Positions 10,648 to 41,410 of a stretch of DNA of 42,101 bases are shown here, piece after piece. This DNA comes from a virus, in IMG/VR virus record IMGVR_UViG_3300046673_000046, positions 1-42,101 of that record. The stretch is one strand, 5' to 3'. Below the pieces are notes generated by a model, which had not been told where the DNA came from, did not search any database, and saw only the letters and a program-made list of their open reading frames with translations. How positions within the stretch are numbered: the stretch's first letter is position 1; each line of letters begins with the position of its first letter. The translations under genes and the position numbers were made by a program.

Positions 10648-11169
10648 TTATAACTCTCGGAGACGCAACATCACATCATCCCAATTCAAGACGCCGTTCT
10701 CTCTCTTGAGTAATGGATAATCATTATCGGCAAGCCAGTCAGGATCAATAGACTTCTCACCGGATTCGTACCACATCCTGACCTGATGCCACGGAACAAA
10801 AAAGATAGTGTTGAGTCGTGGCCCACGACTTGATCCTCGTAGTTCAATGGCAAGAACGCCAAACCTGCCGGTGTCGTCGATGAACTTACTAATCCTAGTT
10901 ACCTGGTGCTCGCCTTTCTTACTAACGCTGAACTTAGAAAAGTATACCTTGTCAGTGTTAGGTCTGGTTATGGATTTACATTCGATGCCAAGATAGTGAT
11001 CCGGGTTGCGTGAGTCAACTAAGACATCAATGAACTGTGTAAAGAAGTGGCTCTGTTTTAAACGGAATGCAAACCCTGGTGAATCTGTAGACTTAAAATG
11101 CCCGTTGATTAGTTTAACAAGTCGGCCTTCGAAAGGGTGAAGTTCCTGGTATCTTGACCACCACCTTAT
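10648..11169 (-). CDS. RecU/Hjc-like Holliday junction resolvase, probable AUA start
   Basis: A 173-codon frame encoding a PD-(D/E)xK nuclease. Motifs in order: Glu14 in 'LHPFEGRL', 'GFAFRLKQSHFFTQFIDVLV' with Asp48, and 'YLGIECKS' with Glu63 and Lys65; later 'FGVLAIELRG' and 'FFVPWHQV' match the RecU-like core. It would cut four-way junctions in replicating viral DNA before packaging. No ATG, GTG or TTG exists in frame before the motifs; the frame opens right after an in-frame TAA with ATA at 11167-11169, which overlaps the upstream stop as A-TA-A. An AUA start coupled to the upstream gene is the simplest reading. No clear ribosome site is seen. Confidence 0.75.
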   Translation of the reverse strand: MRWWSRYQELHPFEGRLVKLINGHFKSTDSPGFAFRLKQSHFFTQFIDVLVDSRNPDHYLGIECKSITRPNTDKVYFSKFSVSKKGEHQVTRISKFIDDTGRFGVLAIELRGSSRGPRLNTIFFVPWHQVRMWYESGEKSIDPDWLADNDYPLLKRENGVLNWDDVMLRLREL

Positions 11170-12866: not shown

Positions 12867-14063
12867 CTAGTTCAGGTTTAATGCAACTTCAGTCCAAGCG
12901 GTAGGCCACTTGCCACTGACATACTTCTTTTCATATATTGCATGCGTTGCGCCAGTGACAGCGACGGTCAATACGCCGTTTACATATGCCGCGCTTGGTG
13001 GCGCACCAGCAGGAACCGAGCCTCCGAGTGACTTCCATGGGGTTGCGTTGCGCTTCCACCAGATAGCGTTGTCTGAACCGACACAGAACACATCAACGTT
13101 TGTGCCATCGGTGCACGCGGCGGGTGCGCTTAATGCAACGCCGCCTAGTGACGTCCACGTTGTTGTTGCCTGATTTTCCCACACTGCCTTATCTGAACCA
13201 ACGCACAATATGTTGCCGGTTGACATGATGGTAGGAGCAGAGCTTACAGTTGTGTGCGTTACTGGCGGAGTTATCTCTGATTCGCCTGCGATGACGTGAC
13301 AGTCTGAGACTAGACCAGTTGTTACGTATCCTGTTGGTAGTAGTCCTAGTCCACCACCGAAGCTACCGAACGCTTTGCCCCAACCTTCGCCCCAAGAGTT
13401 CAACGTCCAGAGATACCCAGGTTGATAACCGAAGAACATCATGCAGTGACCACCGATTGATGCTCCGGAAGGCATGTCGATAATGCCGTCACTGCCTACA
13501 TCTTCAATCTGTGCATAGACAGGTGTTCCGTAAACAACTGGAAGACCTGTGACTGCGAGAGCGGTTTGAATATTAACTAACGTTTGGTTGTATCCTTGCG
13601 CTGAGTCTACGAGATACGAGTTGTTTGTCTCATCTTTGACTGCATCGCCTGCGACGTTTGCTGGCGGTGTGTCATCGATTCCATTAGGATCATATGGCCA
13701 ATCTGTTTCGGGTGCGACACCATATTGAATCGTTGCCTGGACTGCATCAGCAACCGTTGCTCCATTATCGCCAGGGAAGTCACCGCCTAAGATACGACTC
13801 ATACGGTATTCATACATCCGGTCGCCGAGAACTGCTTTACCGTTCCGCTTCATCTGTAACGCTTCAAAGGTGCTCGTCGTTCCGTGTGCTGTGCAACTCC
13901 CTGCGGAACCCTGGTTCTTAACGGTGCTGACTAGCGATGTTAGATCGCAGGTTGTAGGTAGTGCTTGCGGTGCTACGAACTGTTCATATCGCAATTCTTT
14001 ATGATTCAATAGTGGCGGCTTCCAACCAAGACCGTAGTTGTGTTTAGGTGTAGTTACTCTCAT
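12867..14063 (-). CDS. papain-like cysteine peptidase with C-terminal lectin-type propeller repeats
   Basis: A 398-residue protein. Residues 30-255 are a C1-family peptidase: oxyanion Gln51 and nucleophile Cys57 in 'NQGSAGSCTAHG', His206 in 'GGHCMMFFGYQ', Asn222 in 'LNSWGEGWG'. Residues 265-398 contain about three repeats of roughly 45 residues with 'W..LGG' and 'WWKRNATPWKSLGG', as in PLL-type fucose-binding propellers. No signal peptide is seen. In bacterial systems such a combination would suggest degrading or binding a cell-surface glycoprotein; here a role on the archaeal envelope (entry or lysis) is inferred. It lies within the head gene cluster, so it may be packaged in the virion. Confidence 0.85.
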   Translation of the reverse strand: MRVTTPKHNYGLGWKPPLLNHKELRYEQFVAPQALPTTCDLTSLVSTVKNQGSAGSCTAHGTTSTFEALQMKRNGKAVLGDRMYEYRMSRILGGDFPGDNGATVADAVQATIQYGVAPETDWPYDPNGIDDTPPANVAGDAVKDETNNSYLVDSAQGYNQTLVNIQTALAVTGLPVVYGTPVYAQIEDVGSDGIIDMPSGASIGGHCMMFFGYQPGYLWTLNSWGEGWGKAFGSFGGGLGLLPTGYVTTGLVSDCHVIAGESEITPPVTHTTVSSAPTIMSTGNILCVGSDKAVWENQATTTWTSLGGVALSAPAACTDGTNVDVFCVGSDNAIWWKRNATPWKSLGGSVPAGAPPSAAYVNGVLTVAVTGATHAIYEKKYVSGKWPTAWTEVALNLN

Positions 14064-15893: not shown

Positions 15894-17912
15894 TTAAACA
15901 TAAAACGGTCTGAACATTAATGTGAACTCGGCGACGCCGTTATCATCAACTCGTATCGTTATGAAGTGATAACCAGCGTGGTTCGCCATTCGCTTACTTC
16001 GCATCCATTTAGATTGCGTACACATCGCCCCACCACTTACTGCATGGATATGACGATCAAAAAAGTATCCTTGCTTGTGAGCGTGACCCATAAGCAGCAC
16101 ATTAGGTTTATCTCCGCCAGTTATACTCTCGATCAACTTCTGAATCCGATATGAAATTGCATATGAATTGTGCGTCCACAACGTCTTTCCGTTCCTTCTA
16201 ACCAAAATAAGTCCATTGGGAACTTCACAACAATATACCCGCCCTGAATAGTGGACAATTGTGGGCATCGTATTAACAGTCGGCGTTGATTGAACCGAAG
16301 TTACATTAACAGAGTCATCGGTTTTAGTTCTGTTAAACGTTATTTTATACCCTAACTTAATCGCGATTTCTGAAAAATCTTCTAACAATCTTTTACTTAT
16401 CGATCTATACCCAAATCCGCTGGCAGTAACCCACCCATCTCCTTTAACCATAGTCTCAAATACGATTTGCAAAACGGACGTATCACAATCTTTTAACCAT
16501 TTTGGAAGATATTTATTAGCGCTTTTATGCCCGCACTCAGCCTTTAAAAACTCTGATAGTTCTGCGCTATGGATTCTTATAACCCTATCAGATGCTCCGC
16601 ATCCACCCCCCAACCTTTCAGCCAAATCTAGTATCGCAGAATAATTTTCGGGGTTAACGGTTTTGTATTGGTGTATTCCGACGTAGTATTTTCTTGCGTG
16701 GCCTTCGGTTACATACCACGCTATTAATTCTGCCATATCGTCTATCGGAACATCGCCAAAATGATATGGCTTGTACCCATTATTCTTAGACCCCCTTGGT
16801 GGAATATTAACGGTTTCTGGTGTCGTCCCTTCCCATCCGTTCGAAACTTGCGTAAACTGCCATTTCTGTCTGCTATATTCATTTACAATATCGATTGCGT
16901 CTTTCCTGTGCCATTCGGTGTTTAATCTAGGATGAGACTTTGTAGGATACGTCAATGTTTCTTTTCTTTTCCACGTAGCGCATTCAGAAGCTTTTGTCCA
17001 CATACCATGATTCGGTGTTACCAAACAGTCTACACTTCTTGCCTTGAAATGAACCATACCACCATCGTAAGGCTCATCAGTGATATTTGTTGGATGTTGC
17101 CATTCAAACGTATGGTCTGCCTTGGTCATCGTTGCCACAAGATCTGTTTTCTCTAAAGTCTTAAACAGTTTCCAGCCATCACTAGTCATTATCTCTGTTG
17201 TATCATCAAAGCAACTTCCATCTTCACCGTGAAAGGCGCGTATTATTATTCCGCCGACTTCTATGTCCCCTTCATCACGCCCTATATATTCCGCATTAGG
17301 AACTGCATCACAAACATCCTGTATCATATTAGCGCCCATTGCCTCATACCACCTGTCGTGATTGCCAGAGATCAGGTATGTATGGAATGGTATCTTCAAT
17401 AGTTGGTTTACGGCGTATTCTTTTTGTGCTGCGTATCCGATATGCTTCAATTCGTAAAGTAGGTTATACTTTCTCGCATCCATTCCGTGTGTAAGATCGC
17501 CACCAAATATACAGAAGTGTGCCTCTCGTTCTTCGCATGTTTGAATGAAGTCGTCTAAGAACTCTTCATGATAATAAATCGATGACATATGCGAGTCAGT
17601 AAAGAAACCAAAGCGTATCTCTTCGCCAGTGTGGTCTAAGTTTACTTTTGGTGGTTCTACGGAGAACGTATTGATACTTTTTCCGATACTTATTGCCTTT
17701 AGTTCTTCGTGAGTGTATCGCCCTGTGATTCCTTCTATGTAGCGAGTTGCCCGTTGCTTTTTCCTATTCTCTCGCTGCCATTCGGTTCTGTGTGCGAGTT
17801 CTTTTTCTCGGTGCTCTACACGGTATATACGACTTGCTTCACGGCAGGCGTCACACGTCTTAAAGCCTTTAGACTCAATCGGTTTACCGCAGTGAGAGCA
17901 AAGTCTTTTCAA
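15894..17912 (-). CDS. metallophosphoesterase with zinc-finger N-terminus, interrupted by an intein
   Basis: A 672-residue precursor. The TTG at 17912 is chosen because it overlaps the upstream stop (TTGA) and follows GGAG by 8 nt; a TTG at 17930 is less well placed. Domains: N-terminal CxxC...CxxC zinc finger and a basic helix (about 1-65), then a calcineurin-like phosphoesterase with 'FFTDSH', 'GGDLTHG', 'SGNHDRWY' and 'GHAHKQG'. A 349-residue intein starts after 'HGEDGS'; removing it leaves about 323 residues. The mature enzyme is probably a DNA-processing nuclease or phosphatase of the Mre11/SbcD-like fold. It sits between the split terminase genes, so a role in packaging or end processing is possible. 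Confidence 0.85.
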   Translation of the reverse strand: MKRLCSHCGKPIESKGFKTCDACREASRIYRVEHREKELAHRTEWQRENRKKQRATRYIEGITGRYTHEELKAISIGKSINTFSVEPPKVNLDHTGEEIRFGFFTDSHMSSIYYHEEFLDDFIQTCEEREAHFCIFGGDLTHGMDARKYNLLYELKHIGYAAQKEYAVNQLLKIPFHTYLISGNHDRWYEAMGANMIQDVCDAVPNAEYIGRDEGDIEVGGIIIRAFHGEDGSCFDDTTEIMTSDGWKLFKTLEKTDLVATMTKADHTFEWQHPTNITDEPYDGGMVHFKARSVDCLVTPNHGMWTKASECATWKRKETLTYPTKSHPRLNTEWHRKDAIDIVNEYSRQKWQFTQVSNGWEGTTPETVNIPPRGSKNNGYKPYHFGDVPIDDMAELIAWYVTEGHARKYYVGIHQYKTVNPENYSAILDLAERLGGGCGASDRVIRIHSAELSEFLKAECGHKSANKYLPKWLKDCDTSVLQIVFETMVKGDGWVTASGFGYRSISKRLLEDFSEIAIKLGYKITFNRTKTDDSVNVTSVQSTPTVNTMPTIVHYSGRVYCCEVPNGLILVRRNGKTLWTHNSYAISYRIQKLIESITGGDKPNVLLMGHAHKQGYFFDRHIHAVSGGAMCTQSKWMRSKRMANHAGYHFITIRVDDNGVAEFTLMFRPFYV
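16167..17213 (-). other. intein with LAGLIDADG-type homing endonuclease
   Basis: A 349-residue in-frame insertion in the metallophosphoesterase. Block A: 'CFDDTTEIMTSDGWK' with Cys1; block B: 'CLVTPNHGMW' with the TxxH pair; two dodecapeptide-like motifs 'LIAWYVTEG' (about 163-171) and 'VFETMVKGDGW' (about 251-261); blocks F/G: 'VYCCEVPNGLILVRRNG' and terminal 'WTHN' followed by Ser+1. All residues needed for splicing are present. The extein joint would read 'HGEDGS/SYAISYR', within the conserved His-Gly motif of the phosphoesterase. Confidence 0.9.
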
Positions 17913-18073
17913 AAGAAGCTCTCCAACCAATCACCTAAGTGTTCTTCATTCTCATAGTGCAAATATTCAGTTAAAATCTTGAATATAAGTTGCTCATCGT
18001 TATCTTCAGCAAAGTAGTCTCTTTTAGAACGTATCTCTTCAAGGAGTTTTTGGGTTTCCGGGCTGAGATTCAT
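17909..18073 (-). CDS. small acidic helical protein
   Basis: A 54-residue protein (MNLSPETQKLLEEIRSKRDY...) following AAGGTGA. An alternative ATG lies one codon upstream. Its stop overlaps the TTG of the phosphoesterase gene, which helped to fix that start. It is helical and acidic, ending in 'LGDWLESFF'. The function is unknown. Confidence 0.6.
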   Translation of the reverse strand: MNLSPETQKLLEEIRSKRDYFAEDNDEQLIFKILTEYLHYENEEHLGDWLESFF

Positions 18074-25171: not shown

Positions 25172-25375
25172 GGGTGCGCAAAGCCAACGCTGGACATTCC
25201 ACGATATATCAATGCACTCAAAACAATAACGTCGCGTGAGATACGGCGAAACTTCCCCGAAGTAAAAGAAACGCTGAAACGCGGAACGTTTTGGTCACGC
25301 TCATACTTCTTAGCAACAACAGGGCAGGTATCGCTTGACAGACTGAAACAATATGTTGAGAGTCAGGGACGATGA
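25172..25375 (+). pseudogene. tnpA: truncated tnpA (IS200/IS605 Y1 transposase), C-terminal part only
   Basis: About 65 codons read 'AKPTLDIPRYINALKTITSREIRRNFPEV...SYFLATTGQVSLDRLKQYVESQG', the C-terminal end of an HUH Y1 transposase. The N-terminal half with the HUH histidines is missing and an in-frame stop precedes the fragment. The stop overlaps the tnpB start (ATGA), the arrangement of intact IS605 elements. The element therefore cannot move on its own. Confidence 0.8.
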
Positions 25376-26481
25376 ATAAAGTATTCCGCTATCGGCTCTA
25401 TCCGACACGCGCACAAGAAACGGCGCTCAATCACACCCTCGACCTGTGTCGATGGGTCTATAATGAAACACTAGCAACACGGCGTAACGCATATGAAGCG
25501 ACCAAAATATTTCCTTATTCAAAACATACTTTATACTCTCGATATGACACTCAAAGGCTCTTGCTGCTATGGAAAGAGCAACAACCAACGCTAACGAGTG
25601 TTTATTCACAGGTACTCCAAGAAATACAATACAGAGTAGACCTAGCGTTCAAAGCGTTCTTTAGACGTGTGAAAGCCGGAGAGAAAGCTGGCTATCCACG
25701 CTTCAAAGGCAAAGGTTGGTATGACTCTTTTACTTATCCACAGTCAGGTTTTGCTCTTGATGGTTCGACGCTGCAACTGTCAAAGATAGGCAGCGTCAAG
25801 ATAAAACTACACAGACCGATAGCAGGCGAGATAAAACGACTCAACATAAAGCGCAGTTCAACAGGGAAGTGGTTTGCGTGTTTCACTGTTGAGTGTGAAC
25901 CAAACATACTAGAACACACCAACGACGCTGCGGTAGGTATAGACGTTGGCTTGACTTCGTTTGCTACGCTCTCGAATGGTGAGCATATAAACAACCCACG
26001 TTTCTTTAGAGCCGAAGAAAAGCAGTTAGCAAAAGCGCAACGAAAGAAGTCAAAGAAAGTTGTCGCTAAGGTTCACGAACGGATAGCAAACAAACGGAGT
26101 AACTTCGCTCACCAGTTGAGTAGGAAACTTGTCAACACATACGGCGTCATCGCCTTTGAGGACTTGAACATAAAAGGGATGATGCAAAACCGCTACCTAG
26201 CAAAGTCAATAGGCGATGTGGCGTGGAGTCAATTCATCGCATTCACACAGAACAAAGCTGAGAACGCTGGTTCGGTTGTGGTGATGGTCGACCCAAAGAA
26301 TACAACTCAAGAATGTTCACGATGTGGTGCGATAGTCAAAAAAGAACTGAAAGACCGCACACATTCGTGTGACTGCGGACTTGTCTTAGACAGGGATGAG
26401 AACGCAGCTAAGAATATCCTGACACGAGGGCTATCGTGTTTTCGCCAGCAAACGGCGATAGAAGCTGCTTGCGTGAGCTAG
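25372..26481 (+). CDS. tnpB: TnpB RNA-guided nuclease of IS605 type
   Basis: A 369-residue protein of normal length. It has the RuvC residues Asp191 ('GIDVGLTSFATL'), Glu263 ('AFEDLNIKGM') and 'DRDENAAKNI' (340-349), with a CxxC...CxC zinc knuckle between (315-335). The N-terminal 'FRYRLYPTRAQETALNHTLDLCRWVYNE' is the typical TnpB start. All catalytic residues are present, so it may still act as a nuclease although tnpA is broken. Confidence 0.9.
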   Translation: MNKVFRYRLYPTRAQETALNHTLDLCRWVYNETLATRRNAYEATKIFPYSKHTLYSRYDTQRLLLLWKEQQPTLTSVYSQVLQEIQYRVDLAFKAFFRRVKAGEKAGYPRFKGKGWYDSFTYPQSGFALDGSTLQLSKIGSVKIKLHRPIAGEIKRLNIKRSSTGKWFACFTVECEPNILEHTNDAAVGIDVGLTSFATLSNGEHINNPRFFRAEEKQLAKAQRKKSKKVVAKVHERIANKRSNFAHQLSRKLVNTYGVIAFEDLNIKGMMQNRYLAKSIGDVAWSQFIAFTQNKAENAGSVVVMVDPKNTTQECSRCGAIVKKELKDRTHSCDCGLVLDRDENAAKNILTRGLSCFRQQTAIEAACVS

Positions 26482-30365: not shown

Positions 30366-30887
30366 TTATGCTACCTTTCGACCGATGGGTAAGCGCTTAT
30401 GATCTCTCAAAGAGACTGTGATTCCATCCGACATAACAGGTGGCAACGGCAGGACAGGCGTTAACGATACATCTGGTGGTTCATATCCTGCGGGTGTTTG
30501 CGCGATTGTAGGTTTTGGATTCTTCGCGCCCCAGTCTATTGAGAGTTCATTGCCCCAGTTACTCGTTCTCCATGCAGGGGTCGGCGTTACGACCGTTGTT
30601 GTCCCCGCTGCTTTTGGCGTAGCTGCGGGGGTTGTCGTTGAGGTTTTAGTTGCAGTCGGGGACGCCGCCGCTTGAATCGCTGCCATTTGACATGTCTCAT
30701 CACAGCTCGGGAATCCGTAGCATGTGCCGGTTGCGGTGATTACTGTGCAGGGTGTCCCTGAACCACATTTAACCCCCTGGTCAACCACAACAGTGACTTG
30801 ACTAGTGAGGCCGGCACTTGAGATAAGTCCTTCAAGTGTGGCGCAGTGTTCGCAGCCAGTCATTGTATAAATCGTTGCAATAGCCAT
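30366..30887 (-). CDS. thioredoxin/glutaredoxin-like tail protein with Thr/Pro-rich stalk
   Basis: A 173-residue protein. The start 'IATIYTMTGCEHCATLEGLIS' is a thioredoxin-fold strand with a CEHC active-site pair (Cys12, Cys15), and the next 50 residues fit the rest of a small glutaredoxin-like fold. Residues 80-110 are Thr/Ala/Pro-rich, a linker. The C-terminus 'SDGITVSLRDHKRLPIGRK' is reminiscent of tail attachment. It sits among tail fibres, so it may reduce surface disulfides during entry. Confidence 0.65.
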   Translation of the reverse strand: MAIATIYTMTGCEHCATLEGLISSAGLTSQVTVVVDQGVKCGSGTPCTVITATGTCYGFPSCDETCQMAAIQAAASPTATKTSTTTPAATPKAAGTTTVVTPTPAWRTSNWGNELSIDWGAKNPKPTIAQTPAGYEPPDVSLTPVLPLPPVMSDGITVSLRDHKRLPIGRKVA

Positions 30888-30897
30888 TTAAAATACC

Positions 30898-31944
30898 TCA
30901 CAAGAAACGAACATTATAGTATCGTGTCTCAGCGGTGTCACTTCCTACCATAAACGAGAAAGTCCCGTCTTTAGCGGGCCATATCTTACCTAGTGCCCAA
31001 CTCTTGCCTTTTGAATCCCTGCACCAAATCTCTAGCTGTCCCGTGTATGGTCTGCCGTGAATCCACTTCTCGTTATTATCCACCCATCCTGCCTGACCGA
31101 CGATTTGCACCTCAAACTCAAGCTTGGAAGATGTCTTTGCACTTGTCCCACCTTTGAACCCGAGGACGATGTGTTTGCATGGGCATTGAATCGCAGGTAT
31201 GACTGTTGTTTTGCCTGCCGCCACTGTTGCTGTAGCCCCACCAGTGCCGCCGGTTGCTCCGGTTTTTGTTGCTCCGTAATGACTGATTAATTGCCCCGCC
31301 AGCCCTTCGCAGACGGACGAACTGCTACCGTATCCGCTCCAAAATAGTACTGAGTCACAGCCGTTTTGGTCAATGACGTTTATGTAGGTGTTTACGTCTG
31401 CCGCTGGACTTGGCCCATACATTATTAAGATGCCGAGGTGTCCGGCACCAGCAGCTTTCGACCATCCGATTGATTGGCTTGGGTCACGATATTCGTTGCT
31501 GTTATTATACGTTTCAATATAATCCCAATGCCCTTTTCCACCGCCCGTCGGGTGATCCCACGGGTCGGCGTACATATCTCCTTGACTATCTCCAACAATG
31601 CCGCCGTAATTAACATACGTGCAATAGTTCTGAACGGTGGAAACTACAGAGCCGCCGCAGCCCTCACCTGCGATACAGTTCCAACCGGCGCTCGCAAGAG
31701 CTTGGAAGTATCCTGCATACGGACCACCGGCAGCGCCTGGTTGACACACCGCTGCGCTGCCGTCATTGAACGCATTGAATGTGGCCGTAGGAATCCCCGC
31801 GTTGTGTATTGAACTCGCGGTTCCTGCAGCGGTAGTACTACCATCCCACTGCCATACAAGACCAGCTTCAGCAAATCCCGATGATGCTAACCAACTAAGA
31901 TTGTCCAAATTGCCGAAGTGAGCGCAGAATCGTTTTGCCGTCAT
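30898..31944 (-). CDS. 'Y-I-E-T-Y' domain protein, glycosidase-like, tail region
   Basis: A 348-residue protein with GAGGTAA before the ATG. Residues 1-230 form a barrel-like domain ('AGLVWQWDG', 'WDYIETYNNSNEY', 'GILIMYG', 'DSVLFWSGYGSSS'), related in layout to the N-terminal part of the 19989-21176 protein and the middle of the 33999-37709 protein. A Gly/Thr-rich linker (about 230-245) leads to a C-terminal beta domain. It may hydrolyse or bind host glycans. Confidence 0.65.
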   Translation of the reverse strand: MTAKRFCAHFGNLDNLSWLASSGFAEAGLVWQWDGSTTAAGTASSIHNAGIPTATFNAFNDGSAAVCQPGAAGGPYAGYFQALASAGWNCIAGEGCGGSVVSTVQNYCTYVNYGGIVGDSQGDMYADPWDHPTGGGKGHWDYIETYNNSNEYRDPSQSIGWSKAAGAGHLGILIMYGPSPAADVNTYINVIDQNGCDSVLFWSGYGSSSSVCEGLAGQLISHYGATKTGATGGTGGATATVAAGKTTVIPAIQCPCKHIVLGFKGGTSAKTSSKLEFEVQIVGQAGWVDNNEKWIHGRPYTGQLEIWCRDSKGKSWALGKIWPAKDGTFSFMVGSDTAETRYYNVRFL

Positions 31945-32424: not shown

Positions 32425-33999
32425 TTAAGTCATCTGCATTTGCTGCAACAACTTCGAGGTCGCTTTTTGAGCCTGCATCGCGCGTGTCTCTTGTTTAGTG
32501 AGTGCAACCATCAATGCCGACCCCTGCGCCGCGCTACTTGTCCCTGAAGGGAGTGAGTACATAATAGTTGTAATAATTTCATCTACAGGCATCGTTCCGA
32601 CCATAACACGCACTTTATCCCCAAGTCCGAAGTCTCTGGGATACCTGACCTGGTCCGTCTCTTGAATAGTAAGCGTAAGTTGCCCATTGATAACCGACTG
32701 AGAAAGCGCGAGGTTGTTTGTTTGAACCATGTTAGCGGCAATCTGTGCAGGCGTGTCACCCGCAACCGCCGTCGCTGCACTGATCCACGATTCCCACCGT
32801 CCGTACTGTTGAATTGAATTAATATCTCCACTAGGGAGCATTTGTTTATCTGGGCCTGTTTGAGGACCACAACCCCATATCATATTAGCCGTCGGTGGCC
32901 CATATGTGTATACGTATTCTTTTAGGTTGCCACTCTCAACGCTAAATATAAGGTTGCCGTCTTGTGTTAAGTCATTGCCCATAAACGTATCAAATACTAA
33001 CTCTCCGTTAATCTGCGTGGTTTTGAAGTTTACCCCACCACTAAGGCATACGTTTTGAACCTGTGTAAGTAGGTTCTCGCCTCGCGAGTTTGCAGTCACG
33101 GTTAATCCCTGTGCGGTTGGCATCCCTGTATTCAGAAATGGGATCGCCCGAGTACTGAAGTGATCCGAACACGCCCCAAGACCAGCATTGAAATAAACGA
33201 GCTCTTTCGCAACATTATCTGCTGGGCCACTTCGCGTATCATATCCCAAGTATAACGGATCATCAACGGTTCCACCGGATGTTTGGTATAACGCACCGCC
33301 AGTAAACGCCGGGGCGAGCATTGCAGGGTATTGTTGTGGCACCGCGATTGTGATAGTGTTAGTGCTAAAATCAACGCCCGACATAGTCATAGCCGCACTG
33401 TTATAATACCGCAGGTCGCTCATGTTGCCGTCATAGCCGCCTTCGATCGTATCCCAATTACTATGAGCGACCCCAGTAGGATCAAGCCATGTAACCGTTG
33501 AACCATCAAGGAACCCCTCAGCATCAGCAACTACCAGAGGTACGTCGTACTCTTCTCCTGCCGTTGAGCCGGTTGTAATGGTCGTTGATATACCAACCGC
33601 TGAACGCTGAACATCAAACTTCCAGGTTCCCGCTACTGCATCAAAGAGCGGCCCGGTGACTACGGGGTAACAGATACGGGACATTAGATACGCATTATCA
33701 CAACCGCCTATTATCGACGTTGTTTCTACGCCCGCCTGGAGCGTGTGTTTAATCCCGTTAGACATAATTGGCCCGTCAATCAGTAGTTCTCCATCACGGT
33801 AGAATAGTATGCCAGTATTTACGTCAATGTCGTAGCTCTCGAAGTCCCTGGTGAGCATATCAAGTTCCCAGCTTGAGACTTCATTCAGTTTTAACGTATG
33901 TTGCCATTGGGTATATCGCGTGATCTCGCCTATGTCTTCCAGGTTAGAATCACGCATTATGATCTGACAGTCAGATTCTATTAAAGGACTTCCGGGCAT
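32425..33999 (-). CDS. tail protein, ReqiPepy6 Gp37-like
   Basis: A 524-residue protein. The N-terminus 'CQIIMRDSNLEDIGEITRYTQWQHTLKLNEVSSWELDM' and 'YRDGELLIDGPIMSN' follow the Gp37-like family of siphovirus tail/baseplate proteins. The C-terminus 'YPRDFGLGDKVRVMVGTMPVDEIITTIMYSL' is the usual domain with a central channel fold. It overlaps the upstream gene by 1 nt. It forms part of the tail tip hub. Confidence 0.8.
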   Translation of the reverse strand: MPGSPLIESDCQIIMRDSNLEDIGEITRYTQWQHTLKLNEVSSWELDMLTRDFESYDIDVNTGILFYRDGELLIDGPIMSNGIKHTLQAGVETTSIIGGCDNAYLMSRICYPVVTGPLFDAVAGTWKFDVQRSAVGISTTITTGSTAGEEYDVPLVVADAEGFLDGSTVTWLDPTGVAHSNWDTIEGGYDGNMSDLRYYNSAAMTMSGVDFSTNTITIAVPQQYPAMLAPAFTGGALYQTSGGTVDDPLYLGYDTRSGPADNVAKELVYFNAGLGACSDHFSTRAIPFLNTGMPTAQGLTVTANSRGENLLTQVQNVCLSGGVNFKTTQINGELVFDTFMGNDLTQDGNLIFSVESGNLKEYVYTYGPPTANMIWGCGPQTGPDKQMLPSGDINSIQQYGRWESWISAATAVAGDTPAQIAANMVQTNNLALSQSVINGQLTLTIQETDQVRYPRDFGLGDKVRVMVGTMPVDEIITTIMYSLPSGTSSAAQGSALMVALTKQETRAMQAQKATSKLLQQMQMT

Positions 34000-36900
34000 T
34001 AGATACCCTCATATCGCGGCACTAAACTTAGGTTAGCTATGCTCTTGTTATACGTGGCTACGCCCATCTCAACAGTGATAACGTTCGCCCCGGGTTGGAA
34101 TCCCCAGAACGTATTGCCGTTCGGGTCCATCTCGAATCTAAGGTTGTTCATCCCCCCAATGTCGGTAGTACTACCAGTAGATGCCGGAACCCACACGCTG
34201 ATTACACCCGAGCCGTGGCACGTCGGACATATCTCCCACCCTCCGCACGTTGCGCATCCTGACGGGATAACGCCTGTGCCGTGACAGGTCGGACACGTCT
34301 CACTCTTCATATATCCTGCGCCAGTAAAGGTTGCGGAGTTTGTGCTCGCGACCGTGTGTGCGTTTTCTGTTGCATCTATGACAACAGCTTCGCCTGCTAC
34401 TAAGTCGTGGTTCAGTTGGAATACGTCGCCCGTGGTAACGTTAGTAAGCGTTGGTGATCTTCCCGGGCCGGTGAATGTCCAGATAGGATATGCAATCACA
34501 TCACCGTTATTATTAACGATGACTTGACTTCCGATGTAGCTCTGTCCAAGTCGCCAGGTAAGCATCGGACCGCACGCGTCCAGGATCGTATCAGTTGAGA
34601 CAGGGTCTACGCCTGTTGTATGCACACCGCACCATGCCGTGATAAACAACCCATTTCGATATAGTGCAATAACCGTAGGCATGATATCATCAATAACGGT
34701 CATCGGCCCCCATGCTGGAAGAGCAGGGCCACACTGACCACCTTCGGACTTAGGGCGTGCGAATTGAAGTGCTGAAGGATACTGGATCGCAACTGCGTTC
34801 ATGCCAATATCTCCGGGTTCGTTATAAGGGTAAAAATTGTTACTTGGACCGTAGGGTAACTGTTCTGTGATATTGGCATGCAGATATGTCACGCTTGGGT
34901 AATCTGCAACTAGCGCGTTTAGCTGTGCCATTGCATTATAACAAGGAGGGCAACCAGGTATCCACATCTGTAGTAGTGTGCAGTTCGGATTCACGGTGCG
35001 GGTCGTTGAGGGATCAGGAGTGAGGAAACAATCCTCAGTATCGACTTCGACTAGGTACGCCTCACTCGCAACCGTGTAGTTATTAGCAAGTGGGTTAACC
35101 AATGTTAGAACGGTTGGGCTATCAATGGAATAAATCTCATTCATCTCTTTAACTGATAGGAGATCAACGACGCAAAGGTTCATGGTAATACCGAATGCTG
35201 AGGGTGCCGTGAATGCCATATGAGTGGCATCTCCAGCGTACATAATCCTGAATGTGTGAATGCCTACAGTACTTGTAAACGGAATATCATAGTTCCCTGC
35301 GCTGTCAGTAGTAGTTGTAGCCCGTTGTGTCCAAGTTCCTGTTACATCTTCCCACAGAGTGACGGTTGCAGATGCGACGGCTATGCCGGTGTTCAGTTCC
35401 GTTAATGTGCCTGTAAACTCACACGTCCCTGCGGGACTCGTAGTGTAGTTCATTGTAAGACTAACCGCTTTGTGTGTCGGTTGCGTCCACACGTAATGCG
35501 TCCCGGCCATATCCAACTGATTGCTTCCAGGGTAATAGGTACTTGCAAGTTCCGAAATGATGAGATCGAATTGAAGTGATTTATAAAGACTAAGTTGTTC
35601 GGGTTCACTATCCCGTGCAGTTATCGCATTATATTTCGGCCCGAACCACACGACAAAGTTAGTCATCCCAGTCTGGTTAACATAACTCCAATCAAAGATG
35701 TCTCGGTACGTCGGCGCGGTTCCCGCAACGGAGTTAGTAAGCATCCCGTTAATGCCGCTTGAATCGTCAGGTCGAACGTATGCAGTTAGTCCGCTTTTTA
35801 CGCTAGGTGATGCCAAATAGGCAGAGGTCGTATAGGTTTCGATGTAAGGAATTGACTTTGAGTTGTAGCAATCGAAACTATTATGATACACGCCTGTTCC
35901 TGAGATGTCAGGTTGTGTCGTGCCCGTACCTCGAGGAGACGAGTTGTCATTGATATACACAGCTCCGGCCCCTAATGATGCTATATATGCGGGGTCGCCA
36001 GTTCTGCCGTGAGAGTTGCCACCCATAAAGTAGCGCCATCCTGCAGCGTAGAGTGACGCAAGCCACGTATGATGGACAGAAAGCGCCGTATCATTATTTG
36101 TAACGACTGAGATATCAATCGCAGGCCATAATCCTTGTCCGGTTATCACGCCGAGTTCTGTAGAGTAATTATCAGAACCAGCCTCGGCAATGCAGATAAT
36201 ACCCATAAAGCCGTTGTAACCAAAGTATTGTATTTCTCCGTCGTTTATCATACTCGGCGGCAAGCCCGCCATATAATTGATATGATACGTGAATGTTCCA
36301 ATCGCCACGATAAGCGAGGCACTGGAAGCCGCAAATGAACCATACGTGACCTGTCCTTCGAGCTCACCGAATATCTTTTGAAACAGCCACGTAAGCCACG
36401 TTGATAGTGACGGGTCTTGTTTTGCTATAGTAGTAACCGTATCTCCGGCATAACTAGCAAGATACGAGACCCACCCTGCGGTAGTTTCTTTACGGGTAAA
36501 TGAGTATGCACCGTTCTTATCTGTAGTGGCAGATGCTATCTTAGTCTTGCCTCGCGGAGAGTTCTTATAAATCGTGACTGTTTGCCCTAAGACTCCTACG
36601 CCTCCCGCTTTAAGCGTGCCGGATAATGTGAAGTTAGTACTAACTGCCGGGTTACCTGGAGAGACTGTTAATGTTAGCGTTGTCGCAGCGACAGTACCGA
36701 CAGTGATTGACGTTGACGCAGTAGATGGAGCAAGACTTCCGCTGCCGAGGAATGACGCTACATAGGTATATATCCCGTTTATATTGAGATTCTTAGTCAC
36801 ATAATAGGTGCCCGTCCCACTAGTAAAAGAGATACTACTCGTCGTTACACCATTGGGATCAGTCTCTTGGATTGACACCATTGTATTCGAAACGTTTTGG

Positions 36901-37709
36901 CTCTGCGAGGTAAGCGTTCCTGATACATGGAACGTCTGGTTGAGTTGAACGTTTGATTGCTCTGTTGAAACGGTGATATTTGTTGACGACTGGACGCTTA
37001 ATGATAATTCATCTTCGGTTTCTTTTTCTTTATCTGCCAATAGTTCCGCTTGGAGGAGGCCCAACACCGCCTTACTTCCTTGAATCTCGATCGGGAACCC
37101 CGCTTCGCAGTTCTCCGTATTAGTAACCGTGAGCCGCGTATCGCCGGTTGCCGCGTCAGCAGAGAGTGCAATCTCTTCTGTGAATGTAAGGAAGTCAGAG
37201 TTCCAGGGTTCGCTCGAAAATGACTGCGATATTTCAGCACCTGGAGGAGCATACCAGTATGGATCGTCTGCTTCAACATAGAGTGGAACATTAACCGTTA
37301 AGCGGCTTCGTTTATCATCATCAACGGTTGTCTCGAACCCCTTTAGGTACCTGCAATACAATACCCTGGTTTCACCCTCTTCGTTAGTGACCCAAAGCTG
37401 GTGTTCGTCAACTTGTGTTATAGAATTTCTAATCCTCTCAAAGTTTCGATGGAAGTCCGCGGGATTTTGACCCGTGATCCTAAGTGGCAAATAAACGGGA
37501 CGAACAGCGCCAACCCTCTGACGGAACTCCGCTCCTGCGATGTTTGGAACAGGATCAGATAGTATTGTATAAGGGAGGCCGTGGTGTCCGGTAGTTCCGA
37601 TTAGTAAGTTGTAAACGTCATCATAAAGTATAGCATTCGGGTCGTTGCCTTGAACATTGAAGTTGTAGACTTGACCATCTGCCGTGTATAACTTCCATAC
37701 TTCTGCCAT
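33999..37709 (-). CDS. mosaic distal tail protein with inserted Ig, 'Y-I-E-T-Y', thioredoxin and zinc-finger domains
   Basis: A 1,236-residue protein. Residues 1-220 and 1055-1236 are the halves of a siphovirus distal-tail protein ('VRPVYLPLRITGQNPADFHRNFERIR', 'NNLRFEMDPNGNTFWGFQPGANVITVEM'). Inserted between them are: Ig-like domains at about 243-430, a barrel-like domain with 'PYIETYTTSAY' (464-735), another Ig-like domain (747-845), a thioredoxin-like domain with CPPC at 920-923 (about 890-1050), and a zinc finger with three CxxC pairs and CxxCxGxG motifs (1139-1168). The piece 'LLSVKEMNEIYSIDSPTVLTL' (850-870) seems to continue the host domain from residue 220. It should sit at the tail tip and contact the host cell. 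Confidence 0.8.
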   Translation of the reverse strand: MAEVWKLYTADGQVYNFNVQGNDPNAILYDDVYNLLIGTTGHHGLPYTILSDPVPNIAGAEFRQRVGAVRPVYLPLRITGQNPADFHRNFERIRNSITQVDEHQLWVTNEEGETRVLYCRYLKGFETTVDDDKRSRLTVNVPLYVEADDPYWYAPPGAEISQSFSSEPWNSDFLTFTEEIALSADAATGDTRLTVTNTENCEAGFPIEIQGSKAVLGLLQAELLADKEKETEDELSLSVQSSTNITVSTEQSNVQLNQTFHVSGTLTSQSQNVSNTMVSIQETDPNGVTTSSISFTSGTGTYYVTKNLNINGIYTYVASFLGSGSLAPSTASTSITVGTVAATTLTLTVSPGNPAVSTNFTLSGTLKAGGVGVLGQTVTIYKNSPRGKTKIASATTDKNGAYSFTRKETTAGWVSYLASYAGDTVTTIAKQDPSLSTWLTWLFQKIFGELEGQVTYGSFAASSASLIVAIGTFTYHINYMAGLPPSMINDGEIQYFGYNGFMGIICIAEAGSDNYSTELGVITGQGLWPAIDISVVTNNDTALSVHHTWLASLYAAGWRYFMGGNSHGRTGDPAYIASLGAGAVYINDNSSPRGTGTTQPDISGTGVYHNSFDCYNSKSIPYIETYTTSAYLASPSVKSGLTAYVRPDDSSGINGMLTNSVAGTAPTYRDIFDWSYVNQTGMTNFVVWFGPKYNAITARDSEPEQLSLYKSLQFDLIISELASTYYPGSNQLDMAGTHYVWTQPTHKAVSLTMNYTTSPAGTCEFTGTLTELNTGIAVASATVTLWEDVTGTWTQRATTTTDSAGNYDIPFTSTVGIHTFRIMYAGDATHMAFTAPSAFGITMNLCVVDLLSVKEMNEIYSIDSPTVLTLVNPLANNYTVASEAYLVEVDTEDCFLTPDPSTTRTVNPNCTLLQMWIPGCPPCYNAMAQLNALVADYPSVTYLHANITEQLPYGPSNNFYPYNEPGDIGMNAVAIQYPSALQFARPKSEGGQCGPALPAWGPMTVIDDIMPTVIALYRNGLFITAWCGVHTTGVDPVSTDTILDACGPMLTWRLGQSYIGSQVIVNNNGDVIAYPIWTFTGPGRSPTLTNVTTGDVFQLNHDLVAGEAVVIDATENAHTVASTNSATFTGAGYMKSETCPTCHGTGVIPSGCATCGGWEICPTCHGSGVISVWVPASTGSTTDIGGMNNLRFEMDPNGNTFWGFQPGANVITVEMGVATYNKSIANLSLVPRYEGI

Positions 37710-37711
37710 GA

Positions 37712-40700
37712 TTAAAACCCGTTCATATGGTGGTATCTCTCCAGTTCAAGATTTGACATAAGCACCTTTCTTGTTACGTTTTCTGAGTCCACACTGACGT
37801 ATGTATTATAATTGATAGTTTGTGAGGATGATGAGGTCTGAGATGTTCGAACCGTTCCGCTAGGTGTGTTGGTACTGCCTACGATGCCCCCAGACGCGAA
37901 CGACCCACCATATGATGCGACAAGCGAACTCCAATCTTCACCCCATCGCCTGCGGGGTACTACGAGTTCTTCTTCGTTCGCTTCACCCAGGAGGTATAGT
38001 GACCCGCCCGGCTTAGCAGGTACTAAAGCACCCTCAGCGCCTAATGATATGTGTAAGAACGGGGGGGTGGTATCAAGCGTAACATGAACCTGCCCTAAGG
38101 CACTTTGAAATGCTCCGGGAATCCCGGTGAAGAATCCCGCCGCCGCCGTCGTTAACCAGTCACCAAGTCCGCCTATCTGTCCCTTAATCCCTCCGGGAAG
38201 CCCGGTGAAGAATCCGGCGGCGCCAGTGAGTAACCAATCACCAAATCCTGATACGGCGCTTGTGATCTTACCAGGCAATCCAGTGAAAAAGCCTTCCGCC
38301 GCAGTGAGTAACCACGTACCGAATCCACCGAGTGCAGATACGATATCGTTCCAAAGGCCTGTCGCCCAATCAGCCCACGGCAACCCTTTGAGCCACGTTA
38401 CCATACCACCTATCGCGCCAGTAAGGGCGTTCCATAGGTCTGTCGCCCATGTTGCCCATGGCAACCCTTGTAACCACGTTACCATACCACCTATCGCGCC
38501 AGTAAGGGCGTTCCAAACTGTAGTCGCATAACCACCCCAATCTAGACCTTTAAACCAGTTGACTATACCCGTTAGTTTGGCAATGAGTGCGTTCCATATA
38601 GCCAAAGCCATTCCACCCCAGTCCCTCGTTTCGAGTATGTTGAGAACCTTGTCGAACCCCGTGCTAAGCGCGGTCCACAGTTTAAGCAACGCGCCTCCCC
38701 AATCAATCCCTGTAAGTGCCTTGAGAATTGCCTGTCCAAAATATACTAATGTAACGAAGATAAGAGTGAATATCTGTAACCAATTAACCATTTTAAAAGC
38801 ATTTAAGAGGGCTGTCCCTAATGCGACGCCCATAGACCCAAGCAGTTTAAAGAGATTTAAAATAGCGCCGCCCCAGTCTATCTTTTTTAGGGAGTCAAAG
38901 GCCCCCCCCAACGCTGCGCCAATACCACCTAATGCACCCATAAGGGCATTCTTTAGGTCGTTTCCAACCGGCCCCCAGACTGTTTTAAATGCATTAAGCA
39001 TCCAGCCGCCTATCTGTGAGAGGTATCCGGGTACCGCTGACCAAAATGTAACGAACGCGCTGAGCATCCAGCCGCCTATCTTAGGAACAATCGCCCCGAC
39101 AGTGCTCCAGAATGTGACAAATGCAGTCTCCATGGCAGTTAATATTTTACCGCCTATTTGTCCCAAATCAACCTTTGCTAATGCTTCTCCTAGCGCGGTA
39201 GCCACTTTAATGAATATCGTAGGTAACAATTCCATTAATTTTACAAAGACGTCACCGAGTTTGCCGAGTATGTCTGGACCTGCTTTGCTCACGCCATCGC
39301 TTAGTCCTTTGCTCATCCCGCCTGATACTTTGGTTCCCGTCGGACTTGTTGAAGAACCTCCACCACCACCAAAGAGACTGTCAAACGCTGCGCCTATCGC
39401 ATTGATAATATTGTTAATCATAGAGGTCGGATCGAAGTTAAGCAAGCCAGTCAGGACATTGTCAATCGCCGTGAGCAGTCCGTTCACCATACCGCCCCAA
39501 TCTATATTTTTAACTGAGTTGAACGCACCCATCAGCATGCCGCCGATCTTATCAAAGATGCCGCCTATCGTCGTGACGGATTCCCCGATAGCTGTGACTA
39601 ACATTCCTGGGAGGCCCATTATATCGTTCTTTACAGTATCAAGGCCGCCCTTGATCCCACTGACCAAATCAGTCGAGAACTTGGAGAAGTTAAGGCTTGT
39701 TAGGTCTCCGACGAGTTCCTTGACCCATCCGAGAAGAGACATGAATTGACTCACAAGAGCGCCGATTGAGGTTCTAAAAGTATTTGATGTCGCATACAAC
39801 AACATGAACCCCGCACCTATCGCCGCGATAGCTATAGTTATGGGGTTAAATGCCATTGCGATACTTCCAATAATTTCAAGGAAGCTTCCACCACTTGTTA
39901 CTGCGCCGGCAATACCAGTAACTGTGCCCATTATAGGTGCCAGCATGCCACCGAGAAGAGCTGTTATCGGTGCGAGAACGCCTGCAAGTATGCCACCTTC
40001 ACCCGCAGCAGCACCGAGCCCTGTTGCGACGCCTTCCGCTTCACCCGCCGCGCCGCCGCCTTCTGCCACTTCTGCGCCTTCAGCTGCTTCACCCGCTGCG
40101 CCCCCCCCGCCAACTTTTGGCGCGACTAGGTTAGTCACTTTACTCTGTAGGTTCATATCCTTCAGCGCAGAAGTAACCTTTGCGATATCCGCAGGTAGTT
40201 TCGTGATACTCATATCAAACAGTTTGAGCACCATCTGTAACGCGCCGACACCGCCGACTAGTCCTATGAAGGCCATACCGATCATCTGTATAGGCATCGG
40301 TAAACTAGTAAATACAGTTACTAAAGAAGTGATAATAGGTAGAAGCGGCGTAATAGCAGCAAGGAAGCTTTCTAGTAAACCAATTATAGACTCACCTAAC
40401 GGGGCAAATGCTAGTTCGAGTTTGTTTTTGAATATGTCTAGTCGTTGTGAAAAAGTTCGCGTATCTTCATACGATTTCTCCATAGCACCGGAATTCGTGT
40501 ACATCTTACCCGTCAGGGTATCAAAGTCAAACGCCCCGGATTTTGCTGCGGCAGTTAGCTGTACTAGAGCGGTTCCACTAAGTTTCGACACCTCACCAGT
40601 CTTTACCCCCGTTGTAGCATATTTGTCTAGCTCTTGAGTGAGTGTAGAGAACGCCTGCTTTGATGTATCGCCGCTCTTTTCAAGCGCCGCCATCCCCGTG

Positions 40701-41410
40701 TTTAGGCCACTTATAGCGGTTCTTGATTTAACCCCTGAGCTGTCCATCTGAGCAATCGATGCGGTCATATCATCGACGCTAACACCGGCTGCCGCATATG
40801 TCGGCCCGGCCTTTATCATATCACTTTGTAGCTGAGAGACTGGGATGTGAGCGTACTGCGAAGCTTGGGTAATGTCGTTAAGTGACGCCGCCATACTGGA
40901 CGCTGGTTCATGAAACTGTGCAAAGGTCTTCATTAACTGGTCGGTATCTGTCGCCACGCTTGTGCCTGTTACCGTGGCGAACTCTTCAAAAGCAGACGTA
41001 AGTGATGTGACCGCTGCTTGCGTTGGCGGTACGCCGCCCTGCATATCTTTAAGTCGGTCATAGACCGTAGAGACCGCAGTGGCGGCGTCAGCAGAACTTA
41101 TAGGGAAGTTACCAAAAACAGTGTTGAACGATCCCTTTAAGCCATTAAGTGCCGTGCCAGTTGCGCCGGTTTGTTTCTCTATAGATTTATAGGCGCCGTC
41201 AACATCCTCAGCAGACTTTACGGCGAATGCGGCAATTGCTACACCTGCAACACCGACACCTGCCGCAGCCATCGTGCCGATGCTGCCTAACTTACTACCT
41301 AAGCTGCTACCTAAGTCCTCGCCTTCACCTTTCGCCTCAGCCATCCCCGCTTTAAGTTGGGTAAGGTCTGCCCCGAACTTAACAACGATGTCAGATCCAG
41401 TGCCTACCAC
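37712..41410 (-). CDS. tape measure protein
   Basis: A 1,232-residue protein starting with GTG, with GGGGTGA upstream. The first 300 residues match the TP901-type tape measure core ('SAEDVDGAYKSIEKQTGATG', 'SAFEEFATVTGTSVATDTDQLMKTFAQF', 'MIKAGPTYAAAGVSVDDM'). The middle has several hydrophobic segments (340-550), and the C-terminus carries Trp-rich tandem repeats. It sets tail length and is ejected at infection; about 1,230 residues predicts a tail of roughly 180 nm by the usual 0.15 nm per residue rule. Confidence 0.9.
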   Translation of the reverse strand: MVGTGSDIVVKFGADLTQLKAGMAEAKGEGEDLGSSLGSKLGSIGTMAAAGVGVAGVAIAAFAVKSAEDVDGAYKSIEKQTGATGTALNGLKGSFNTVFGNFPISSADAATAVSTVYDRLKDMQGGVPPTQAAVTSLTSAFEEFATVTGTSVATDTDQLMKTFAQFHEPASSMAASLNDITQASQYAHIPVSQLQSDMIKAGPTYAAAGVSVDDMTASIAQMDSSGVKSRTAISGLNTGMAALEKSGDTSKQAFSTLTQELDKYATTGVKTGEVSKLSGTALVQLTAAAKSGAFDFDTLTGKMYTNSGAMEKSYEDTRTFSQRLDIFKNKLELAFAPLGESIIGLLESFLAAITPLLPIITSLVTVFTSLPMPIQMIGMAFIGLVGGVGALQMVLKLFDMSITKLPADIAKVTSALKDMNLQSKVTNLVAPKVGGGGAAGEAAEGAEVAEGGGAAGEAEGVATGLGAAAGEGGILAGVLAPITALLGGMLAPIMGTVTGIAGAVTSGGSFLEIIGSIAMAFNPITIAIAAIGAGFMLLYATSNTFRTSIGALVSQFMSLLGWVKELVGDLTSLNFSKFSTDLVSGIKGGLDTVKNDIMGLPGMLVTAIGESVTTIGGIFDKIGGMLMGAFNSVKNIDWGGMVNGLLTAIDNVLTGLLNFDPTSMINNIINAIGAAFDSLFGGGGGSSTSPTGTKVSGGMSKGLSDGVSKAGPDILGKLGDVFVKLMELLPTIFIKVATALGEALAKVDLGQIGGKILTAMETAFVTFWSTVGAIVPKIGGWMLSAFVTFWSAVPGYLSQIGGWMLNAFKTVWGPVGNDLKNALMGALGGIGAALGGAFDSLKKIDWGGAILNLFKLLGSMGVALGTALLNAFKMVNWLQIFTLIFVTLVYFGQAILKALTGIDWGGALLKLWTALSTGFDKVLNILETRDWGGMALAIWNALIAKLTGIVNWFKGLDWGGYATTVWNALTGAIGGMVTWLQGLPWATWATDLWNALTGAIGGMVTWLKGLPWADWATGLWNDIVSALGGFGTWLLTAAEGFFTGLPGKITSAVSGFGDWLLTGAAGFFTGLPGGIKGQIGGLGDWLTTAAAGFFTGIPGAFQSALGQVHVTLDTTPPFLHISLGAEGALVPAKPGGSLYLLGEANEEELVVPRRRWGEDWSSLVASYGGSFASGGIVGSTNTPSGTVRTSQTSSSSQTINYNTYVSVDSENVTRKVLMSNLELERYHHMNGF
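38393..38515. repeat. 27-codon direct repeat within the tape measure gene
   Basis: A 42-bp exact repeat at 38393-38434 and 38474-38515, 81 bp apart, encodes part of a 27-residue unit containing 'WNALTGAIGGMVTWL' and 'GLPWA'. Further diverged copies flank it. Such repeats can change tail length by recombination. Confidence 0.8.

Follow-up and report, generated by a model that had tools for sequence, protein, structure and literature searches.

Distal tail proteins (Dits) that carry extra domains, the so-called evolved Dits, have been described for siphophages of lactic-acid bacteria, and these proteins carry carbohydrate-binding modules (CBMs) within loops of their peripheral C-terminal domain (PMC7291167). 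A thioredoxin is listed among the metabolic genes of HGTV-1 (PMC8651126), and the papers on the structure of the archaeal virus HFTV1 and on mycobacteriophage baseplates mention no thioredoxin. No description of a thioredoxin domain within a Dit or a tail tip was encountered in open-access full text, in agreement with the claim of novelty made in an earlier note on the DNA analyzed here. Judged by that literature, evolved Dits are known, and what is new is a thioredoxin-type domain together with a zinc finger as a conserved decoration. The DNA concerned, hereafter the window, is a stretch of 42,101 nucleotides (IMG/VR record IMGVR_UViG_3300046673_000046, positions 1-42,101).

The interrupted Dit and its locus

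The gene at 33999..37709, which like all of its features given below lies on the minus strand, is a single open reading frame of 1236 amino acids with an ATG start. It directly follows the gene of the tape measure protein (37712..41410, minus strand; PHROG_1272, E=8.5e-40) and precedes that of a Gp37-like minor tail protein (32425..33999, minus strand; Pfam Sipho_Gp37, E=8e-21). The N-terminal (ring) half of a Dit was recognized in residues 1-165 (37215..37709), of which residues 5-158 match PHROG_106 (E=1.6e-23). The first part of the Dit C-terminal domain (residues 1050-1135; 34305..34562) matches PHROG_5577 (E=4e-12) and PHROG_33 (E=1e-11, named distal tail protein Dit) over residues 1050-1126, and the match of the same residues to Pfam SPP1_Dit (E=7e-6, 26.6 bits) lies above the gathering cut-off of 25; the remainder of the domain (residues 1171-1236; 34002..34199) was assigned by alignment. 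Given these profile matches, the 1236-residue protein is, as far as its sequence goes, a Dit whose halves (residues 1-165 and 1050-1236) lie around 885 residues apart, in line with the around 800 residues of interrupting domains that had been noticed before. Its location in the tail follows from gene order and Dit homology, and by analogy to SPP1-type Dits it would form a six-copy ring at the tail end.

Homologues were found in at least ten viral contigs. An assembly error joining separate genes, which had been named as a possible objection, was ruled out because the same gene recurs in independent contigs, being complete and 100% identical in L002 and partial in L003 and L007, and because complete homologues of 1231-1628 amino acids exist. 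Among the related loci in IMG/VR, divergent complete forms are present in L004/L005/L012-L015, L006, L008, L017, L019 and L031/L032. As a side observation, the Dits of L004 (8001-12341) and L015 (4638-8981) are nearly identical from around residue 170 to the end, whereas their N-terminal halves and the tape measures diverge, a pattern of recombination exactly where the Dit ring domain ends. The tape measure of L031 (1-2631) contains many near-identical ITGGAHDIWSY repeats.

The insert between the Dit halves starts with a small beta-domain that is split by a cassette (Ig, Ig, barrel-like domain, Ig) and is followed by the thioredoxin-like domain. The halves of the beta-domain (residues 176-218, 37056..37184; residues 847-900, 35010..35171), when joined, align with two contiguous copies, that of the 579-residue protein of L017 (residues 179-272) and a second one in L004. 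Considering that the beta-domain is contiguous in L017 and that the joined halves of the window align with it, the L017 protein represents a natural version without the cassette. It has kept the thioredoxin and the finger, and these therefore constitute the conserved core.

Within the cassette, the earlier reading of Ig domains was borne out. The second one (residues 341-427; 36429..36689) was identified as Big_3_5 (Pfam E=1e-9), the first one (residues 240-338; 36696..36992) was modelled by AF2 with a pLDDT of around 75-85 and retrieved Ig-like adhesin domains in Foldseek, and the strands of the third one (residues 745-845; 35175..35477) were modelled with a pLDDT of 78-93 (model residues 590-670). 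The proposal of a glycosidase-like domain was abandoned, as residues 455-735 (35505..36347) resembled no glycosidase family or fold and had no significant match in Pfam, PHROGs or PDB sequences. The region is conserved (50-71% identity in relatives) and its fold is unassigned; the AF2 model of the window insert is unreliable here. The Ig/barrel cassette is an optional part, presumably for adhesion.

Elsewhere in the window, a calcineurin-like phosphoesterase is encoded at 15894-17930 (minus strand; Pfam E=1e-7), which has weak matches to the small subunit of archaeal DNA polymerase II and seems to hold an intein, with a Hint-like start CFDDTTEIMTSDGWK and the end WTHN/S. The window also encodes a papain-like (C1) cysteine peptidase (12867-14063; Pfam E=1e-9), and frames that by eye resemble it were seen in L021 (5057-6355) and L024 (538-1680). 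A gene for a Ku protein (L025:1517-2308; Pfam E=2e-43) is present on a relative of 67.9 kb. Neither Rfam families nor tRNAs were detected in the window.

The thioredoxin-like domain, the zinc finger and their cysteines

The thioredoxin-like domain comprises residues 905-1062 (34524..34997) and overlaps at its C-terminal end with the beginning of the Dit C half. The CPPC motif (residues 920-923; 34941..34952) is invariant in all seven distinct homologues and is preceded by Trp916 (W-x3-CPPC). A candidate cis-proline loop is formed by Met1010-Pro1011 (34677..34682), which in a MAFFT alignment coincides with Ile75-Pro76 of E. coli TrxA; the motif MP[TA] is conserved, with the MP being invariant and situated before a strand, although the cis state of the proline is not confidently modelled. 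In a comparison with PDB chains, the profile of the seven sequences matched thioredoxin 6ali with a modest E of 1.2e-4, and nearly all further matches were thioredoxins, TlpA or redoxins. Single members matched the Pfam families Glutaredoxin, Glrx-like and Thioredoxin weakly (best 1e-3), and no single sequence of the family passed the Pfam Thioredoxin cut-off.

The AF2 model of the L017 protein has a mean pLDDT of 48.8, with 60-77 in the thioredoxin core, and that of the window insert a mean of 50.3, with the Ig domains well modelled. In the latter the elements are ordered beta-alpha-beta-alpha-beta-beta, and a helix starts at the CPPC (model residue 762, which is residue 921). In Foldseek the L017 model retrieved first the tail-tip proteins of mycobacteriophages Douge and Bxb1 (E 1e-4 to 1e-3) and then thioredoxins, with a probability of 1.00 and a TMt of up to 0.58 at a pLDDT of 60-77. 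These low-confidence models are supporting and not decisive. Nevertheless, profile and Foldseek results agree with the CPPC-bearing thioredoxin-like unit that had been proposed before and with a thioredoxin fold around the CPPC, and residues 905-1062 very probably adopt this fold.

The zinc finger (CPTCHGTG/CATCGG/CPTCHGSG; residues 1136-1170, 34200..34304) interrupts the C-terminal domain of the Dit within a loop, and gp17 of phage SoJo shows a gap here. Its CxxC knuckles are found at 1139/1142, 1152/1155 and 1161/1164, with the motif spanning residues 1139-1168, and its best PDB profile match is the cysteine-rich domain of DnaJ (1exk, E=1.9e-6). The type of finger named in the earlier note was thus recovered; its location was not, as it lies inside the Dit C half and not between the halves. 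With two full CxxCxGxG repeats plus CATCGG in place of the four-repeat, two-zinc arrangement of DnaJ, and with a score of 17.7 bits against a cut-off of 32.7 for Pfam DnaJ_CXXCXGXG, the chaperone-like activity that had been suggested along with it appears weakly founded.

Conservation of the cysteines sets this part of the protein apart. Between the seven distinct versions, identity over residues 895-1236 amounts to 48-77%, and within this region 11 of the 12 cysteines are invariant, versus 20% of the other positions (binomial 2e-7, a value that assumes independent positions and ignores the generally high conservation of cysteine). A better control is provided by the cysteines elsewhere in the same protein, of which none out of seven is invariant. 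The invariant set includes all six cysteines of the finger and five in the thioredoxin-like domain, namely the CPPC pair and Cys993, Cys1027 and Cys1046. The presence of the latter three could point to a structural or metal-binding role instead.

One may argue that the same holds for all of these cysteines, such that the redoxin fold would be a decoration or spacer that performs no catalysis, the CPPC and the three other cysteines would form stabilising disulfides or bind metal, and the zinc of the finger would stiffen the Dit loop. The presence of five and not two invariant cysteines in the domain fits such a role, as do the facts that the extra domains of Dits often are inert or serve in binding (PMC7291167) and that zinc knuckles are common folding aids. 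However, an inert fold needs no invariant CPPC at around 50% identity, the context of a thioredoxin active site has been kept (the tryptophan, the CPPC at a helix start and the MP loop), and the best profile matches are active thioredoxins. A purely structural role therefore seems rather unlikely to us, and we consider the domain to be probably redox-active.

A second candidate redoxin is encoded in the tail module. The protein of 173 residues specified at 30366..30887 (minus strand) has an N-terminal glutaredoxin-like GCEHC and is conserved in position within the tail module of relatives, C12, C15 and C41 being invariant among five aligned sequences. It carries the C-terminal signature IAQTPAGYEPPDVSLTPVLPLPP, and in L017 it is fused into a tail-region protein of 885 residues with the same signature. 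The protein is possibly a second redox protein of the tail module, but since the match to Pfam Glutaredoxin is weak (best E=0.016 among members) this is put forward as a suggestion. When the two redoxin-like proteins were compared as potential close paralogues, hhalign gave a probability of 3% over 21 columns around the CxxC. The adjacent frame at 30898-31944 encodes a cysteine-rich tail-region protein of 348 residues, which is 55-77% identical in relatives and has no match in Pfam, PHROGs or PDB; its comparison with residues 455-735 of the Dit gave an hhalign probability of 0.9%, and thus no detectable relation.

The cysteine content of these adjoining tail proteins (2.9% in the 348-residue protein and 4% in the small redoxin-like one) could be taken to mean that redoxin and finger form or guard disulfides in the virus's own tail proteins during assembly or maturation, the more so as an algal protein with a DnaJ-like finger and oxidising chaperone activity exists (PMC7865324). 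Yet, assembly occurs in the reducing cytoplasm, and the fusion to Dit would retain the enzyme in the finished virion, where an assembly factor is not needed. A target within the virion itself is in our opinion improbable.

The host

Two genes of the window provide clues to the host. The TnpB of an IS605-type element (25372..26481, plus strand) has its best matches in methanogens, at 57-63% identity overall (Methanomicrobiales, 62%; Methanothrix/Methanosaeta, 58-63%), followed by Chloroflexi (57%). The frame of an Hjc-like nuclease (10648..11169, minus strand) is 40-48% identical to a methanogen gene. Homologues of the latter, one per genome, were detected in two methanogen classes, with 169 of 238 genomes in the class to which Methanosaeta belongs and 91 of 231 in that of the Methanomicrobiales genome, and in none of 47 Ktedonobacteria (the sole bacterial group searched), 50,697 phages and 72,556 plasmids. 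The nuclease is also present in relatives of the virus (L021, 37% identity and a weak Pfam Hjc match; L024, 27%). The frame in the window has no ATG, GTG or TTG start near its 5' end, implying another start codon or a truncated gene.

A search with the tail profile recovered no provirus or host-borne relative in 84,980 genomes, and one with the major capsid protein recovered none in the two methanogen classes and the Ktedonobacteria. In the search for CRISPR spacers, for which both methanogen classes were covered by part of the pieces of the window, short matches were obtained that lay outside repeat arrays in the inspected cases, and no spacer was found among them. The TnpB and nuclease results spoke against a host among the Chloroflexi (Ktedonobacteria) or Actinobacteria, which had been considered at first. 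On the basis of these two matches the host is quite likely a Halobacteriota methanogen and not a bacterium.

The same evidence bears on the idea that the protein is a carbohydrate- or protein-binding adhesin of an ordinary bacterial phage, with incidental redox features. Ig domains and CBM insertions in Dits are normal adhesion devices, the Dit C half is closest to that of Streptomyces phages, and relatives of TnpB occur in Chloroflexi as well. Nevertheless, the Ig/barrel cassette is dispensable whereas thioredoxin and finger are not, and the nuclease and TnpB point to methanogens, making an ordinary adhesin very unlikely.

A possible redox function at the tail tip and comparison with known systems

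With redoxin and finger being the conserved decoration and the cassette an optional one, the most straightforward interpretation is chemistry performed by the redoxin at the tip. We tentatively favor a scenario, based on the sequence data above, in which the protein is the evolved Dit of a siphovirus-like archaeal virus that displays redox domains for disulfide exchange with the host coat. The Dit ring would expose the CPPC thioredoxin-type domain and the DnaJ-type zinc finger, with or without the Ig/barrel cassette. Following a first, Ig-mediated contact, the CPPC thiols would attack disulfides of the host's protein coat, either those of the S-layer or those that link the sheath of sheathed methanogens, and the coat would be loosened or the tail locked on through a mixed disulfide. 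The CPPC site could be re-reduced by the anoxic, sulfide-rich surroundings, in which case a reductase partner would be unnecessary. In this way the tail-tip domain may help in the attachment to, or the crossing of, a disulfide-held coat. An action of the redoxin on disulfides of the host, be it at attachment or at entry, is conceivable, if short of an even chance, and that its substrate is the sheath is doubtful.

The sheath hoops of Methanospirillum and Methanothrix are disulfide-linked and a strong reductant is needed to split them (PMC6242892, PMC10593813), and viral passage through the sheath on entry has been the subject of speculation only (PMC11576556). A coat of this kind would be a fitting target for a thioredoxin at the tail tip. 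For virions of sheathed-methanogen viruses one may imagine, as a long shot, that it reduces the disulfides of the hoops or swaps in to anchor the tail, and in that case there would be a testable answer to the question of how viruses pass a coat that requires a reductant.

To our knowledge, the opening of host coats by tail-tip enzymes has so far been described as the cleavage of sugars or of peptides. If the proposed function is true, a redox-based route through the cell coat would replace such a glycan- or peptide-cleaving enzyme, and a thiol-disulfide domain built into the tail ring would represent another chemistry for attachment or entry.

The Dits of Douge and Bxb1 (PDB 8zdo, 9d93) were the top Foldseek matches of the L017 model, but the paper on Douge mentions no thioredoxin, zinc or disulfide. 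Similarly, the minor tail protein gp17 of Streptomyces phage SoJo is related in the Dit C-terminal domain, with 37% identity over 84 residues ahead of the finger, but with 447 amino acids it is without the thioredoxin domain and without a finger at the matching loop. Thioredoxins and TlpA-like oxidoreductases share the CxxC after a Trp and the profile and fold matches, whereas the domain of the window has its MP loop separated from the second strand/helix by a long insertion, has three further invariant cysteines and is part of a structural virion protein. The CxxCxGxG knuckles are shared with DnaJ (1exk), unlike which the finger has three in place of four CxxC knuckles, scores below the Pfam gathering threshold and is not accompanied by a J domain. 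The SH-like proteins of viruses of sheathed archaea are also viral proteins that are thought to act on the methanogen sheath, but these secreted, amyloid-like proteins were proposed to function in egress (PMC11576556), whereas the Dit of the window is a tail protein with a possible role in entry.

A parallel is found in the evolved Dits of lactic-acid-bacteria siphophages (PMC7291167, PMC10688798), which likewise have extra domains within loops of, or adjacent to, the peripheral C-terminal domain and are encoded between the tape measure and the next tail gene. Their decorations are CBMs, whereas those described here are a thioredoxin-type domain, a DnaJ-type finger, Ig domains and an unassigned domain, with one domain being split by a nested cassette. 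The concept of the evolved Dit would hereby be widened to include a possible enzyme beside the sugar-binding decorations and, on indirect host evidence, to take in archaeal viruses.
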